Shown piece by piece: positions 14,338 through 22,806 of a stretch of 32,060 nucleotides of DNA. Origin of the DNA: Betaproteobacteria bacterium HGW-Betaproteobacteria-18 (GTDB taxonomy: Bacteria > Pseudomonadota > Gammaproteobacteria > Burkholderiales > Burkholderiaceae_C); contig PHCO01000011.1 of assembly GCA_002842265.1 (NCBI GenBank), positions 1 to 32,060 of the forward strand. The letters run 5' to 3'. Both the position numbers and the translations under genes were made by a program. The notes beneath the pieces were generated by a model, which saw only the letters and a program-made list of their open reading frames with translations, was not told the origin of the DNA and did not search any database. The number at the start of each line of letters is the position of its first letter. Within the stretch, counting starts at the first letter, position 1.

Positions 14338-15221
14338 AAGATGGTTGCAGGTTTGCGCGGTGGCAGCAGCACTGCGGCTATGGCGACCATGACGCACAGC
14401 ACGGCCACCAGGTCTTGCCAGCCCGGCACCTCGTGCACGATCAGGGTGGCGCTCAGGGTGCCCACCAGCGGGATCGCCATGATGCTCATGGCGCTGGTGG
14501 CGGGTGGCAGGTGGCGCGCCATGCCAAACCAGATGATCTGGGCAAAACCGTAGTTGATGAGCGCGCCATAGACCAGGCTGCCCCACATCGGGGTTGAAAA
14601 TTGCCAGACGGGCCAGGGCTCCAGCACCGCGGCCAACACCCACAGGCAGACGCTGGCCAGAATCAGCATCCACACGGTGAGCGTCTCCATGGGCAGCGTC
14701 AAATGGGCACGGCGCATCATCAGCGTGCCTGCCGCCCACGACAGCGCGGCCAGCTCCATCCAGACAATGCCCAGCGGTTTGCCGGTGATGGCAGTGAGCT
14801 CGTTGAAAGTGAGCAGGCCAATGGTCAGCGCCACGGCCAGCATGGCAAAAACGATGCGTTTTGTCAGCTTCTCCTTGAACACCAGCACCCCCAGCAGCAC
14901 CGTCCAGATCGGCATGGTGAAGCCCAGAATGGCAGCGCGGCCGCTGGCGAGTTCCTTCACGCCCAAAATCGCCAGCGTGTGCCAGCCCAGCACATTGGGC
15001 AGCCCCAGCGTGACGATGCTGCGCCACTCGCCCCCCTGCGGCCACATGCGCACGCCCTTGAAACGGTAAAAACCGAACAACCAGAGCGCGCCAAAGCTCA
15101 TGGTCAGCGCGCGAAAGTAGAGCGGCGAGAGCTCGCGCAAGCTGTACTTCATCATCGGCCAGTTGATGCCCCACATCAGTGTGAGGGCGACCAGGCCCCA
15201 GATTTGGCGGCGACTGATCAC
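14334..15221 (-). CDS. EamA/DMT-family transporter
   Basis: About 10 hydrophobic segments; [43 protein letters not shown] at 15221 overlaps the thyA stop (GTGA); its stop overlaps the folA ATG (ATGA). Confidence 0.88.
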
Positions 15222-16051
15222 ACGGCCACCGGCGCCTTGATGGCGGGGTGACACTGGTAGCCGTTGACCGCGAAATCTTCATAGACGTAGTCAAAGATCG
15301 AGTCAGGTCGGCGTTTGATTTCCAGTGTGGGGTAGGCAAATGGCGTGCGGCCGAGCTGCAGCGCCACCTGCTCGGCGTGGTTGCTGTAGATGTGACAGTC
15401 GCCGCCGGTCCAGATGAAGTCGCCCACGTCGAGGTCGCACTGCTGCGCCACCATGTGGGTGAGCAGCGCATAGCTGGCGATGTTGAAGGGCACGCCCAGA
15501 AAAATGTCGGCACTGCGCTGGTACAGCTGACAGCTCAATTTGCCCTTGCCGCCCGGTGCGGTTGCCGGGGCCACGTAGAACTGGAAAAAAGCATGACAGG
15601 GCATGAGCGCCATTTTGTCGAGCTCGGCCACGTTCCAGGCGCTCACCAGCATGCGGCGCGAATCGGGGTTGCTTTTAAGGGTGTTCATGACCTGGCTGAT
15701 CTGGTCGATGTGGCCGCCGCCTGGCGTCGGCCAGCTGCGCCATTGCACGCCATAGACCGGCCCCAGGTCGCCGGTGTTGGGGTTCGCCCATTCGTCCCAG
15801 ATGGTGCAGCCGTTGTCCTGCAGCCATTTCACGTTGGCGTCGCCGCGCAAAAACCACAGCAGTTCGACGATGATGGCCTTCAGGAATACCTTCTTGGTGG
15901 TGACCAGCGGAAAGCCCCGGGCCAGGTCAAAACGCATCTGGTAACCGAAGACGCTTTTGGTGCCGGTGCCGGTGCGGTCGGCCTTGAAAACGCCGTGGGT
16001 GTCCACATGGCGCAGCAAATTTTCGTATTGGGAACTGGTGGATTGGGGCAT
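15218..16051 (-). CDS. thyA: Thymidylate synthase (start 16051 or 16069)
   Basis: [65 protein letters not shown]...[14 protein letters not shown]...[29 protein letters not shown]. Confidence 0.97.
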
Positions 16052-16124
16052 GTCAAAAAGGGCACGCATCCCTTTTCCTTGTTTCGCTGAGGTAAGCGAT
16101 TCTAACTTTCCGGGCATCAGCCCT

Positions 16125-18683
16125 TCAGTCCTTCGCCACCACCGTGTCATACAACCCGTAGTGGGTCAGGCCATCGTGGCTCAGAATGCCGGTGTAACGC
16201 AGCGAGGCATCCTCATAACGCCGAAACGCAAACACCGCCTGGTTCATCTGCTCGGTGTTGAACACCTTGAGCCGCACCAGCAGGTGAAAGTCCTGCACCG
16301 TCAGCCCGGTCACGGTCAAAAACAACTCAGGCTCCAGCTTGGTGATGACATCTTGCAGCGTGTTCTCCCGAAAATCGGTGAGGTACATGAACGCCGGGAT
16401 GCGGGTGGCAAACTTGATCAATTTTTCCTGCACCAGCTTGCGCTTGGACTTGTATTCCTTTTCCTCATCAGAAAGCTCTTTTTTCTCTTTTGCTGACAGC
16501 TCGCCTTCCTTGGCCTTGGTTTTGAGGTCTTTGACCTTTTCGCTTTTGTTGATGATGGTCTCAATGACGTTGTCGCCCAGCGAGCGCCAGCCCTCAATGC
16601 GCCCCACCGCCGCCATCGCCTCCGGGCTGTCAAGGATGCGGCGCAGCGTGCCGTTGTCCACATTCACCAGCAGCGCACTCTCCCACTTGCGGGCCAGCAG
16701 CGTGGCCGAGGTGCCTGCCATCGCAATGTCCAGAATGCCGCCCGCGTCGATCTGCGTCATGTTGGCACCATCAAAAGCCAGCACCGGCAAAAAGGCCACC
16801 AAATCCCGCACCGCGTTCTCGGGGTTGGACTCGTTGGGCGACAGGCCAATCCCGTATTCCGACAACTGGCGCAGCGCACGCGTCGGCGCAAAGTCGAACA
16901 CAAAGCACACCGGTTTCAGGATTTCCTCTTCGTTCGGGTTGTCGCCGTTGGGGTTCTTGATGGACCACGGCGACTGCACCCGAAACGCCGCCTGAAAGTA
17001 CGTCTCGGGTGACTTCAAATTGCGCAGCATCAAAATGGACGACCACTGTGCCACCGTCACGCCCGTGGTCAGCTTGCCGCATGACAGCGTGATGGTTTTG
17101 GTGTCGAACCCGCTGCCAATCGCCTTGCGCACGGGCGGCAGCGCCTCCAGCCCAATACCCGCCGTGCTGCCGGCGGCCACGATGACCTGATAGCCAAGCC
17201 AAAAGGTGTTGTGCCGCTCGGCCAGCAAATTCGCCATGGCCTGGCAAGCCGCCACATTGGGCAGAAACCAGAACGAATGCTGCAAATAGGGCAGCAGGCG
17301 CACGTCTGAGTACGGAAACGGCGGGCGCGTGCCGGTTTTCAGCACCTCCGCCGACTGCGCCGCATAGCCGCCGCGAATGATGTCCAGCCACTTCTGCACA
17401 TCACTCTTGTGGGTGAACTCGGCACCCACCCCGGTGCCCTTGGCCTCAAAAAAAGCATTCAGATCAAACTCGTCAAACTCACCGCCACTGGCAATCGCCA
17501 GCAACTCGTCGGGCATTTGGTAGGTCAGCAGGCGCATCTGCGGCAGGGCCGCGTAGGGGTTGCGCTTGGCTGGATGCTGGACGGCAAACGCTTCCTTGGC
17601 ACGCTGTTCGTCGGTGTAGGTCCAGTTGAAGATTTGTTCTTCGATGAACTCGCCCGTGGCCAGCGCCTTGAACGGTGTGCCCGATAAGTACAAATAGGCC
17701 CGGGTGGTGATGGGCAAAAACTCGGTTTCCCGCTCAGAGAGCACGGTCAGGTCTTCGTTGACGCTCTCCAGCTCACCCGCGTATTCCAGCTTGGCCTCTT
17801 TCTTGGCGACTGCGTCGTCCTCGCCCTCGAACAACTCCTTGGCCGTTTCGCGCCAGGCGCCAAAGTGGTATTCGTCAAACACCACCAAATCCCAATTCAC
17901 CGCGTGCAGCCATTCATTGCGTGGCTTGATGTTGCCCGCTGCATCACGGCCCAGCAAGTCTTGAAACGAGCCGAAATAGATCACCGGCTTGGCACGGTCG
18001 ATCTGCGTCGGATCACTGTCCGAAGATCGCGACAGGTATTGCCATCCCTCAAAGTCCACATGGCTTTCCAGGTCGGTCTGCCAGGCATCTTCCACCGCCG
18101 GTTTGAAGGTCAGCACCAGCACGCGTTTGGTCTGGAGCTTTTTGGCCAACTGGTAGGTGGTGAAGGTCTTGCCAAAACGCATCTTGGCATTCCACAGAAA
18201 GCGCGGGGCAGCGTTGGCATCCTCAGCCCAGATTGAGTGGTAGTAGTCGAAGGTCTTGCTGACCGCATCAAGCTGCTCGGCACGCATGCCAAAGGTCTCG
18301 TGGTGTGTGCCGCTGAGCTGCTTTCCGCTGCGCAGCTCGGCCAGCACGGTGGCCACATCTGCCACCGTGCAGCGCACCCATTCCAGGGTGGTGTTCTCGA
18401 ACCCTTTTTTGCCCAGTGCTGAGCGCACCTCGTGGTCGGTAAAGATGGAACCGTCGTCGCGCTCGGCGGCTTCATCCAGCTCAATACTGAAGTTCTGGAT
18501 GGCGGCAGTCTTGAGCTGTTCGGCCACACGCCGCTTGACATCCCGACTGGTCTGGCCCACCTTGAGCAGGCCGTGGTGCGCGGCATCGGCAATCGCGTAG
18601 GCGTAGATGCGCGGGCGGGCTTCGGGCTTGGGCGCGAGGATGTCCTCGATGGTCGGTTTGCTCACAAAGTCGGGTTTGCTCAC
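16125..18683 (-). CDS. GIY-YIG (T5orf172/MUG113-like) nuclease domain fused to SF2 helicase; putative restriction component
   Basis: N-terminus [33 protein letters not shown]...[25 protein letters not shown]; Walker A-like [22 protein letters not shown] box (VVFDEYHFG); [13 protein letters not shown] 18683 forms a GTGA overlap with the fic stop; ORF-track start is 18707. Confidence 0.83.
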
Positions 18684-19714
18684 GCTGGCCTTTCGATGAT
18701 TTCCCAATGACCCGCCTTGTCAGAGCCCACGCGCTGGATTCGGCCTTGCTCACGCAGTGCTTTGAGATGGCGCTTGATGGTCTTGTCCGTCACGCCCAAC
18801 GCGAGCGCCATCTTCTGAGCTGTCACCTTGGGATTGGCGCGCACCATCGCCAGAATTTTGTCTGTGAGTTCATTTACAGGGACATTTACAGGGACATTTA
18901 CAGGGATATTTACAGGGACATCCACCACCGTCTGCGCCGCCACATCGATGTACTTGTAGAGCGAATTTGCCAGGGCATCGAGCATAAAGTCGATAAACGG
19001 GCGGCAATCTACCTGCGCGCCAGCATGGGAATCTTGCAAGGCCTTGTAATACAGCACTTGGTTGTGGTGCACCAGCGTCTCCATCGGCATCCAGGCAAAC
19101 AATGGGTTCCACTGGGCAAGAATCAGCGTTTGCCACAGCCGTCCGATTCTGCCGTTGCCGTCGCGAAAAGGATGGATGTACTCCAGCCGGTAGTGAACAG
19201 CAGAACTCTTGATGAGCGGATGCGCTTCGCTGGTTTGCCCCCACTGCAAAAGCTGCTCTACAAGGCTGGGGACTTGAGCCGATAACGCGCCACGGTGCAA
19301 CAGCGTGCCATCACTGCCCACCACGGCCACACCGCCTGAGCGGAACTGACCCGATTCGCCAATCAGGGTGTTTGTCAGGTGCGCGTGCGCCCGCAGCAAG
19401 TCGTCCACCGACCAGGGTGTGTAGCCAGGCAACTCGTTGTAAGCATGCCAGGCGTTTTGCACCTCTTTGATGTCCTTGGGTGGCCCCCAGACCGGTTTGC
19501 CGTTGATGACATCGGTGACCTGACCCAGAGTGAGCTGGTTGCCTTCAATGGCGGTGGAGGCGTGCACCGAGAGAATGCGATTGAGTTTGCGCAGGTGCAG
19601 CACATCGCCCGACTGCTCCTCGCTGATCTTGACGCGCTCCAGCAAGGCATGAATGGCACCGATTTTTTCGTGCCACTTGGGGGCTTCTGTGAAGAATTTC
19701 TCCATTGGCTTCAC
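18680..19714 (-). CDS. Fic family protein with C-terminal HTH
   Basis: Fic motif HPFRDGNGRIGR intact; N-terminal inhibitory-type motif STAIEGN; VPVN-repeat linker; C-terminal winged-helix-like VTAQKMALALGVTDKTIKRHLKALREQGRIQRVGSDKAGHWEI. Confidence 0.93.
   Translation of the reverse strand: MKPMEKFFTEAPKWHEKIGAIHALLERVKISEEQSGDVLHLRKLNRILSVHASTAIEGNQLTLGQVTDVINGKPVWGPPKDIKEVQNAWHAYNELPGYTPWSVDDLLRAHAHLTNTLIGESGQFRSGGVAVVGSDGTLLHRGALSAQVPSLVEQLLQWGQTSEAHPLIKSSAVHYRLEYIHPFRDGNGRIGRLWQTLILAQWNPLFAWMPMETLVHHNQVLYYKALQDSHAGAQVDCRPFIDFMLDALANSLYKYIDVAAQTVVDVPVNIPVNVPVNVPVNELTDKILAMVRANPKVTAQKMALALGVTDKTIKRHLKALREQGRIQRVGSDKAGHWEIIERPA
18873..18920. repeat. 4 x 12-nt tandem repeat TTTACAGGGACA within fic
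   Basis: Units 18873-18884, 18885-18896, 18897-18908 (one mismatch, GGGATA), 18909-18920; encodes VPVN-IPVN-VPVN-VPVN. Confidence 0.97.
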
Positions 19715-19762
19715 GGCCTGCCTCCGGGCGGTTTAGGAGCGCGGGTCTCCTCGATGACGGGT

Positions 19763-21415
19763 TTAGTCATCTTCACTTTCGCCAACGGCGACCTCGCCAA
19801 ACAGGTCACTGGTCAGATCCATCGGGCGGACTACCTTCTCGATGAACTCGATCTCGCTCGCAGAGATGCCATATTTGGCGTACAGGTCTTCGTCCGTCCA
19901 CCGCTTTGTCCATTCTTGTGTCGGCACGAAGGTGTAAACCTTGCGCGTGGTGTCCTGGGATGGCTTGTGCAAAAGGATCAGCAGGCGGGTCAGACGGCAA
20001 GTCAAATAAGACAAGGCGCTTTCGGCTTCGATTTGGCTGTCGAACGGGCAGATGCAGAGATAGGTTTCGGAACAGATGCTGCCCGGTTCGCCAATGAAGG
20101 GCGTGCTGAGGATGCGGTGCGGATAGGTGTCTCGGTTGCCGGTGCCCGGCGCAGCACGACCCACAAAAATCTTCCATTTGTCGATGAGTTCGGTGCCGGC
20201 GGTTATCGAGTCTCTGGCGATGTAGCCTGTTCCGCCATTCTGGTAGATCAGCACATCACCATCACGCTTTGTCTTTCTACCCTTGAAAGTTGTTTCAAGG
20301 GCGAATGGTTTTCTTGAGCTGACCAATCGGTCAAACCGTTTACCCTCCGGCATCAAGAGAGACTCAGATTGCCCCGTCTCAACCAATACGACTTTCTTGA
20401 GGATCGAAAGTCCTTTATTGAAACGGATGAAAATGTCTGCCCCGTTTTCCATGAGCGGCCGGGTGGCGGTAGATACCGGCCAATCCTTGAAATGGGTGCT
20501 CACGTCACAGAGGCCAGGGTGGTCACGGTTCCAGAGGAAATAGCAAACACCGCCCTTGAGGCCCACGCCAGGAAAAACATCTGCAGCACTCAGGTAGTCA
20601 GCAATGGAGCGCAGGCGATTGTCGGCGAGCATCGATTCCCTGAACTCATCCAGCCCCTTGCCGCCAGCAAACCAGCGTGCCGGAATCACCATCGACAGGT
20701 AGCGTGGCTCCAACGCTTTGGCCTGCTCCACGAACAACTGGTAAATCGGCGCGGCGCTGGTGCCATAACCACCATCGTTCAACTGATACGGCGGATTGCC
20801 AATGATGACGTCGAACTGCATATCGCCTCCAAACAACTCGGTCATCCGAGTCTTGATATTGTCTGTGTGAATGAATGCGTAGGCGTGGGTTTCCAGCGCC
20901 TCGCCACGGTCCAACGCCGCCTGACTGGCGCCGCAAAATGTGCATTTGCCGTTGGCCCAGGTGTGCTCGGTGCGCTCAAACCAGATATTGCCCGCATCAC
21001 TGGCAAAGCCCTTGACAATGGAATGCGCGCCATTGGCGTGTTTGGAGCAATACACGCTACGCCGCGCCAGCAGGCTGGTGAGTTGCGTGATGCCGATGCC
21101 AAAAACCTGTTTTGTGAGGATGTGGTTCACGCGCGCTTGCAGGTCTGGCATCTGCTGCGCCAGCCCAAGGGTCAGGCGGCTGGTGATTTCGCGCAGAAAA
21201 ACGCCTGATTTGGTGAACGGGTCCAGAAACCGCACGGATTTGTTTGCCCACAAATCTGCACCATTGTGGTCATGGCTCCAAGCCTCGGCCAGCATGTCCA
21301 GCATGCGGCTGGCAAGCTCGGGCGGCGTAAAAACCTCGTCGTTTGACAGGTTGGCAATGCAGGTCAGCACATCCGGGTTGCGGCCGCGCAGGGTGAAAGA
21401 AACTTGTTCGTTCAT
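19763..21415 (-). CDS. Eco57I-like N6-adenine DNA methyltransferase/restriction protein (M2)
   Basis: Motif X-like NDEVFTPPELASRMLDML; variant motif I FLDPFTKSGVFLREI; motif IV DVIIGNPPYQL; C-terminal region with Eco57I/TaqI-like appearance. Confidence 0.85.
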   Translation of the reverse strand: MNEQVSFTLRGRNPDVLTCIANLSNDEVFTPPELASRMLDMLAEAWSHDHNGADLWANKSVRFLDPFTKSGVFLREITSRLTLGLAQQMPDLQARVNHILTKQVFGIGITQLTSLLARRSVYCSKHANGAHSIVKGFASDAGNIWFERTEHTWANGKCTFCGASQAALDRGEALETHAYAFIHTDNIKTRMTELFGGDMQFDVIIGNPPYQLNDGGYGTSAAPIYQLFVEQAKALEPRYLSMVIPARWFAGGKGLDEFRESMLADNRLRSIADYLSAADVFPGVGLKGGVCYFLWNRDHPGLCDVSTHFKDWPVSTATRPLMENGADIFIRFNKGLSILKKVVLVETGQSESLLMPEGKRFDRLVSSRKPFALETTFKGRKTKRDGDVLIYQNGGTGYIARDSITAGTELIDKWKIFVGRAAPGTGNRDTYPHRILSTPFIGEPGSICSETYLCICPFDSQIEAESALSYLTCRLTRLLILLHKPSQDTTRKVYTFVPTQEWTKRWTDEDLYAKYGISASEIEFIEKVVRPMDLTSDLFGEVAVGESEDD

Positions 21416-21440
21416 GGCAGAAATTACATGGTTTTTCGCG

Positions 21441-22034
21441 TCAAAGGAAGCCGATGGGCGGTTTGGCTTTGCGCGTTTTGTCCTCTGCTATGAGCTGTTT
21501 TATGGCATCGAACACTTGGGAAAACTGCTCGTCGTAGCGGGTTTCCATGGCCTCAATGCGGCGGGCCAAATCGCGGTTGGAGTCCATCAGGCGGCGCAAC
21601 TGCACAAACGTGCGCATGATGGCGATGTTGACCTCGACGGCACGTTGGGAGCGCAGTACGCTGGAGAGCATGGCGACGCCCTGCTCGGTGAAGGCGTAAG
21701 GCGGTGTGCGTCGTCCCCCTCTGTTGTTTGACATCACAATTTGTGATGTCAAACCCGCAATAGACGGCGAACTCGTCACAGTTTGTGATGACTTGCCGCC
21801 TTTGATCGCTGATGTGGTCACAATTTGTGACCGCATAGCCGTCCACTCGTCAGTTGTAAGCTGAAACATGAAGTCATCAGGAAACCGGCTACGGTTGCGG
21901 GCCACGGACTGGTTCAGGACACGTGCTTCAACACCATAGAGGTCGGCAAGATCAGTATCTAACAACACTTTTTCGCCCCGGACGAGAAAGACGAGCTTGG
22001 CCAGATTTTCTGGTTGAGGGACGATTTGAGTCAT
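21441..22034 (-). CDS. ORF6N domain-containing protein
   Basis: NLAKLVFLVRGEKVLLDTDLADLYGVEARVLNQSVARNRSRFPDDFMFQLT and RRTPPYAFTEQGVAMLSSVLRSQRAVEVNIAIMRTFVQLRRLM. Confidence 0.92.
   Translation of the reverse strand: MTQIVPQPENLAKLVFLVRGEKVLLDTDLADLYGVEARVLNQSVARNRSRFPDDFMFQLTTDEWTAMRSQIVTTSAIKGGKSSQTVTSSPSIAGLTSQIVMSNNRGGRRTPPYAFTEQGVAMLSSVLRSQRAVEVNIAIMRTFVQLRRLMDSNRDLARRIEAMETRYDEQFSQVFDAIKQLIAEDKTRKAKPPIGFL
21726..21832. repeat. Three TCACA(A)n-TTGTGA inverted repeats at 42-bp spacing inside the ORF6N gene
   Basis: 21726-21754 GTTTGACATCACAA-T-TTGTGATGTCAAAC (perfect); 21776-21788 TCACA-GTT-TGTGA; 21816-21832 GGTCACAA-T-TTGTGACC (perfect). Centres 21740, 21782, 21824. Confidence 0.95.
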
Positions 22035-22696
22035 GGCGTCAATTTTTTAAGCGTTGATGGCGATGGCTCCTGCAAGGCAGCCAGTTCGCACGCCGTCATG
22101 GGCGGGTGGGTTTTGATGGGGGCAAAGATTTCGTGCTTGCCCAGGTCGGCAAAGAGCGAACCCTCTGCGCTGAAGGCCGACGAGCCGGTGAGCACGTCAA
22201 ACCGGAAGTCGCGCCGCTGGTACTTGCCTTTGCCCAGGTAGCCCCATTCGGCAAAGGTGATGGGCTGGCCGTCTTTGGCGCGCATGGTCAGCGCGTCGCC
22301 GTGCACCAAATTGACTGACAGTACATGCGTGGCGGCCCGGTACAGGTCGTCCGATTCATCCAGGTTGAGGTACTCGGCAAATACATCCAGCACGTTGGCG
22401 CGGCATTCGGCAATGTTGTCGGCCAGCAGTTCGATGCCGTAGATGCACATCAGCCCCAGAAGGGCGTAATGCTGCCGCTCGAAATCTGACTTGCCGTATT
22501 TGCGTTCCACTGCAGCAAGCTTGCGTTTGAGTATTTGCACGATGAAGTTGCCGCTGCCGCACGCCGGTTCCAGAAAGCGGGCATCGATGCGCTCGGTCTC
22601 GTCTTTGACCAAATCCAGCATGGCCTCCACCATCCATGCGGGCGTGAAGACCTCGCCGTGGTCGGCAACGCGTTGTTTGGATTTGACGAGACTCAT
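22031..22696 (-). CDS. Small N-6 DNA methyltransferase-like protein lacking an NPPY motif (M1)
   Basis: [21 protein letters not shown] (motif X-like) and [20 protein letters not shown] (motif I); no NPPY. Stop overlaps the ORF6N start (ATGA). Confidence 0.85.
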
Positions 22697-22718
22697 GAGA
22701 TGGCGACGGTATGTGCCG

Positions 22719-22806
22719 TGGCGGAGAGAGTGGGATTCGAACCCACGGTACCTTGCGGTACGCCTGATTTCGAGTCAGGTACATTCGGCCACTCTGCCAT
22801 CTCTCC
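22719..22806 (-). tRNA. tRNA-Ser (anticodon CGA), encoded CCA
   Basis: Reverse strand GGAGAGATGGCAGAGTGGCCGAATGTACCTGACTCGAAATCAGGCGTACCGCAAGGTACCGTGGGTTCGAATCCCACTCTCTCCGCCA; 7-bp acceptor stem, long variable arm, anticodon loop CTCGAAA. Confidence 0.96.

Follow-up and report, generated by a model that had tools for sequence, protein, structure and literature searches.

The window, the whole 32,060-nt stretch of DNA that we analysed, contains a compact restriction/Fic island at 16125-22806, made up of an ORF6N gene, two methylase-like genes, a Fic-HTH gene and a ResIII helicase gene (Table 1). Because the island lies between tRNA-Ser(CGA) (22719-22806) and an ORF at 15218-16150 whose sequence reads as thymidylate-synthase-like, its position suggests insertion at the tRNA gene. 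The upstream methylase-like gene overlaps the ORF6N start codon by 4 nt, and the two genes are therefore likely to be co-transcribed; the Eco57I-type methylase gene begins 25 nt past the ORF6N gene. In a profile search the ORF6N product scores 113.9 bits against PF10543, above the cut-off of 27.8. Its gene receives the PADLOC candidate label PDC-S05, and the protein matches PHROG 4792 'anti-repressor' in sequence (E 6e-24).

Table 1. Genes, protein segments and palindromes of the restriction/Fic island
Feature	Position	Strand	Basis or remark
ResIII-type helicase/restriction subunit, end of likely operon	16125..18707	-	PF04851; REase_MTase_IIG
Fic/DOC protein with C-terminal HTH, same likely operon	18680..19714	-	PF02661, HTH_11; SoFic-like
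Eco57I-type restriction-modification methylase, downstream gene	19763..21415	-	PF07669 E 1e-37
ORF6N-domain protein gene, 197 aa, predicted self-binding regulator	21441..22034	-	PF10543 E 4.2e-33
Wing-like GGRRT, residues 106-110	21705..21719	-	counterpart of family columns 78-81
Loop, residues 74-105, hosting two extra 14-codon repeat units	21720..21815	-	AF2 model
Main predicted intragenic operator, 29-nt perfect palindrome GTTTGACATCACAA-T-TTGTGATGTCAAAC	21726..21754		centre 21740; 14/14 paired
Second site, imperfect, TCACAGTTTGTGA	21776..21788		centre 21782
Third site	21812..21836		centre 21824; arms paired overall at 11/12 positions
Predicted recognition helix, residues 37-46, specificity residues R38, V39, Q42	21897..21926	-	AF2 model + mutual information
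Upstream gene, N6-adenine methylase-like	22031..22696	-	weak PF02384/PF20473 matches; MTase_II in PADLOC

Three palindromes in the ORF6N gene

An earlier note on this DNA had described three palindromes at exact 42-bp intervals inside the in-frame ORF6N gene. All three are present as described, and their centres, when re-measured, lie exactly 42 and 42 bp apart. The sites have the orientation TCACA-N3-TGTGA, and the third has a perfect core of 17 nt (GGTCACAATTTGTGACC, 21816-21832). This third site, centred at 21824, occupies the family position, that of the single site of most homologues; the sites at 21782 and 21740 are repeats at 42-bp steps from it.

The same note held that synonymous codon choice keeps the palindromes. 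We drew synonymous codons at local usage 50000 times and compared the palindrome scores. The score of site 21740 was reached in 0/50000 draws and that of site 21824 in 3/50000, so that the claim stands for these outer two palindromes, which are far above codon expectation. The middle palindrome, 21782, was matched in 1137/50000 draws and, taken alone, is just mildly unusual. Exact TCACAANTTGTGA occurs twice in the 3.58-Mb genome to which the window belongs, both times within the window ORF6N gene, and a search for the longer motif TTGANRTCACAANTTGTGAYNTCAA that allowed up to 3 mismatches likewise gave sites in that gene only.

An operator of a wider regulon was considered and rejected, because the motif is absent elsewhere in its own genome and in 20 other genomes lies nearly always in or beside ORF6N genes. 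Among the 42 Q-class sites in those genomes, 30 fall inside ORF6N domain matches, 6 adjoin them and 6 are elsewhere; the reversed control pattern gave no sites in the same 20 genomes.

A palindrome at a fixed place in ORF6N genes

We drew ORF6N genes from the genus, a scan of the whole collection, Bacteroidota and other genomes, viral contigs and plasmids, which gave 189 non-redundant genes; 188 could be aligned and span at least 20 named phyla, many of the sequences being from metagenome bins. Caulobacter vibrioides and Lactococcus lactis are among the species with ORF6N genes. An odd palindrome of 25-41 nt lies at one fixed place in the 188 genes, with a median distance of 207 bp between its centre and the likely start codon, and the longest perfect palindromes reach 41 nt (L089). 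The excess over codon expectation holds family-wide: among the 189 genes, the best palindrome near the hinge has a mean score of 11.6 vs 4.9 in synonymous recodings, and 171 genes score at least 8, every one of them with an odd-centred palindrome.

The arms vary in sequence, and both arms change together (TCACAA/TTGTGA, TCGCAA/TTGCGA, TTCCAA/TTGGAA, TGCCAA/TTGGCA, TTGCAA/TTGCAA). At each arm position from ±2 to ±13, 85-100% of the 188 genes have a Watson-Crick pair, and the variable positions (±4, ±5 and ±7 to ±13) share 0.4-1.3 bit of mutual information with their partners vs about 0.1 with wrong partners.

The earlier note would have taken homologues that keep the peptide but not the DNA palindrome as a refutation of its reading. 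The reverse is seen. In twelve ORF6N genes the palindrome is in another reading frame, where it reads VITNCD or VANCD and not SQIVT; because of these genes, the conserved entity, as judged from the alignment, is the DNA and not the peptide. Among frame-0 genes, the codon for the Ser that precedes Q is TCA in 97/97 genes with T at +4 (Val next) and TCG in 33/33 genes with C at +4 (Ala next), and the Leu codon is TTG or TTA as set by the base at +10. The palindrome thus sets the Ser codon and even pairs of amino acids, a clear case of DNA-level constraint dictating protein sequence.

Most homologues have one palindrome, so the 42-bp array is not the core feature that it had appeared to be; from the comparison of homologues, it is a local elaboration of a family-wide feature. 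Close relatives of the window gene carry one (L012, L013), two (L006-L010) or three (L005, L011 and the window gene) copies of the 42-nt unit. More than one site is found in 22 genes, the commonest spacing being 42 bp (10/27, partly shared descent).

Extra sites, whether coding or upstream, are often of a class other than that of the gene's own helix. Several multi-site genes (L182, L036, L039, L005, L208, L112 and L223) have a site for their own helix plus foreign-class sites, as if old sites outlast a switch in specificity or serve paralogues. Sites are also enriched upstream of ORF6N genes, with 30 in 188 windows vs 10 in 680 control windows. The ORF6N gene L257 is preceded by four palindromes at an exact 34-bp spacing, each of a different specificity class; this array could answer to several ORF6N proteins.

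The palindrome covaries with a predicted recognition helix

An AlphaFold (AF2) model of the window protein, built from an alignment from which two plasmid-collection rows and, for size, some others were left out, has a mean pLDDT of 78. In the model, helices 26-33 and 37-46 form a putative helix-turn-helix, of which helix 37-46 bears residues 38, 39 and 42. The stretch encoded by the site is predicted to close a helix and then to enter a disordered loop, residues 74-105, with pLDDT below 50 in segments 74-85, 88-91 and 94-105; that the encoded stretch runs into this loop accounts for the tolerance of extra 14-codon units. A sequence search for relatives of ORF6N in the PDB returned none, and Foldseek with the fold model gave no significant match.

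Every protein column was tested against each base pair of the palindrome. The best predictor of base pair ±4 is residue 42, in helix LYGVETKVLNQAVKRN, and not the residue encoded there. Gln at residue 42 goes with A:T (103/107), Glu with G:C (36/37) and Arg or Lys with C:G (36/41). Similarly, Lys at residue 38 goes with G:C at ±7 (95/96), Y81 with G:C at ±8 (75/78) and G78/R80 with G:C at ±10 (119/119); family columns 78-81, to which Y81, G78 and R80 belong, co-vary with positions ±8 and ±10. Gln-adenine, Arg/Lys-guanine and Glu-cytosine are textbook contacts. The window sites match the helix class of their own protein (Q, A:T), genes with the palindrome in another frame obey the code too, and the code is broken at the best site in 10/185 genes.

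Outside the encoded stretch, columns 38, 39 and 42 score highest in mutual information between protein and DNA. The signal does not stem from simple linkage: column 42 has 1.31 bit, and columns 44-65, although closer to the site, have a mean of 0.15. We also built a tree from which the helix and site columns were left out. About 54 changes at ±4 fall on it, and each test gave 10-14 supported independent pairs, with 9 to 12 in the same direction and 0 in the opposite one. Proteins that are 92% alike elsewhere exchange helix and palindrome jointly (for example, L241/L251 and L017/L031). Helix and site are about 100 nt apart within one gene, and recombination could transfer both at once, although the intervening columns show no covariation.

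Palindromes in RhuM and Bro-N genes

RhuM (PF13310) genes have an equivalent palindrome in 40/41 cases, at the same offset in 35. In this set (L299-L353), long perfect palindromes such as AACTATCCGGAAATTCCGGATAGTT and GCAGTATGTGCAAATTTTGCACATACTGC lie just past the recognition helix. The residue before the conserved His goes with base pair ±4 as follows: Glu with G:C in 8/8, Lys or Arg with C:G in 13/17, and Gln, Leu, Met or His with A:T in 13/13. RhuM thus resembles ORF6N both in having a palindrome after the recognition helix and in the residue-base code at ±4. A DNA similarity search of E. coli genomes found no RhuM relative there.

Some Bro-N genes (PF02498; L269-L298) also have perfect intragenic palindromes, for example TCAACTGGTGACAAATTGTCACCAGTTGA (L290, L283, L293, L295); other Bro-N genes have no palindrome at that place. 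RhuM and Bro-N are domain families different from ORF6N, and the cores of their palindromes differ.

Discussion

Proteins of ORF6N, a family of phage-type regulators, and of RhuM occur widely in phages, plasmids and defence loci, and we know of no established target for either. In ORF6N genes, a DNA palindrome is conserved, is independent of reading frame and covaries with the helix. On these grounds, the palindromes are very probably sites bound by the protein of the same gene, an ORF6N dimer that represses its own gene. Each half-site would be read by the recognition helix (residues 38, 39 and 42) and the wing-like segment. Binding about 200 bp past the start codon, within the coding sequence, would give self-repression whatever the promoter, and could account for a mobile regulator that controls itself behind any promoter. 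We postulate that the most likely means is a roadblock to elongating RNA polymerase. In the window gene, such a roadblock would also throttle the restriction genes that follow in the likely operon. With a spacing of 42 bp, or four helical turns, the three sites would form an array on the same face of the DNA and should bind more strongly or cooperatively. The suggestion in the earlier note of an intragenic operator with autoregulation by ORF6N is thus strongly supported by the family-wide recognition code.

Several other explanations have to be weighed against self-binding. The palindrome might be a site of recombination or shuffling at which cassettes of helix and site are swapped among ORF6N genes, binding being secondary. 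Near-identical proteins do differ by an exchanged helix-plus-palindrome block, ORF6N copies are often tandem or fragmentary, and the number of palindromes per gene varies. However, shuffling predicts neither the residue-to-base code, nor the lack of covariation in the intervening columns, nor the enrichment of sites upstream of the genes, and no recombinase is constantly linked in the ORF6N neighbourhoods examined; we regard this explanation as quite unlikely. It is very unlikely that the palindrome works at the mRNA level, folding into a hairpin that controls translation, is a target for RNase or is bound by the protein as RNA. The arms are perfect over 12-20 nt and a mismatch is tolerated at ±1, as in a triloop, but G.U pairs are not favoured (22 G.U vs 41 A.C mismatches at positions 2-13), and where T stands at ±4 the opposing Ser codon is TCA in 97/97 frame-0 genes; TCG, the codon that would form a G.U pair, is absent. 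The residue-base code, moreover, fits the chemistry of double-stranded DNA (Gln-A, Arg/Lys-G, Glu-C), and an Rfam search returned one weak, unrelated chance match. We reject the hairpin because G.U is not tolerated and there is no credible Rfam match.

The sites could instead be operators of another protein, such as a host factor, the Fic HTH or CRP, given that the DNA is palindromic and that the Fic protein of the window has an HTH. This would be highly improbable, since covariation of the site with the ORF6N helix holds in neighbourhoods that are unrelated to each other. The consensus for CRP is TGTGA-N6-TCACA, the opposite arrangement to TCACA-N3-TGTGA, and we found nothing to support the Fic HTH, which the earlier note had named as a possible binder and for which there is no basis in covariation. 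Lastly, there is next to no chance that the sites are nothing more than a slipped-strand repeat of a 14-codon peptide with fortuitous palindromy. The unit is exactly 42 nt and varies from one to three copies among close relatives, and slippage, also proposed in the earlier note, does account for copy number. It leaves the palindromes unexplained: palindromy is far over synonymous expectation and persists in single-copy and other-frame genes, and as a sole explanation slippage is refuted by this family-wide test.

Binding of the ORF6N protein to its own gene would have a close precedent in C.Kpn2I, a small HTH regulator in a restriction-modification locus that is a roadblock to elongation when bound to a site within its own coding sequence; its authors stress that such a switch is promoter-independent and suited to horizontal transfer (PMC6237814). 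Like the ORF6N sites of the window, that of C.Kpn2I is within its own gene and in a restriction locus (PMC6237814), and we consider it the closest precedent. The two proteins differ in kind: C.Kpn2I is of the XRE type, whereas the window protein matches PF10543 alone and is thus not a member of the C.Kpn2I/XRE C-protein family. The C.Kpn2I site falls within the first part of the ORF or immediately ahead of it, has three-nucleotide outer repeats and was shown for a small clade (PMC6237814). In contrast, the ORF6N palindrome is long and perfect, lies about 200 bp inside the gene, covaries with the helix and is found in at least 20 phyla.

In the LacI family, a few residue-base pairs make up a family-wide recognition code that autoregulation exposed, and bound repressor can block elongation (PMC2978694, PMC3711431). 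The LacI-family code was derived from intergenic sites, whereas the predicted ORF6N operator is part of the very sequence that encodes the DNA-binding domain. RptR is a small autorepressor of R-M defence islands with palindromic sites in tandem (PMC12255303). It resembles the predicted action of ORF6N as a small self-repressor of a restriction locus through tandem palindromes, but the proteins are unrelated, and RptR binds 6-bp palindromes in the promoter and not in its own gene (PMC12255303). We found no description of autoregulation through intragenic palindromes for ORF6N or RhuM in the open-access literature that we searched. The intragenic mode itself is already known from C.Kpn2I; an operator that covaries across a whole family and lies within the sequence encoding a DNA-binding domain is, as far as we have seen, without precedent.

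For the ORF6N and RhuM families, sequence alone yields predictions for the target and the specificity code as well as a mode of regulation, and the code could supply orthogonal repressors. We speculate, tentatively, that ORF6N, RhuM and part of Bro-N might be a superfamily of mobile regulators in which each gene is tagged with the operator of its own protein, helix-palindrome classes being groups of immunity or incompatibility and foreign-class sites a network of mutual repression. If so, a resident protein would silence incoming elements that carry a gene of the same helix-palindrome class, and resident members would be linked in mutual repression through foreign-class sites located upstream or in the loop.

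Another short in-frame repeat beside a DNA-binding domain occurs in the same island. The Fic protein contains, at 18870-18960 and ahead of its HTH, a linker of repeated VDVPVNIPVNVPVNVPVN with four VNxPVN-type units.
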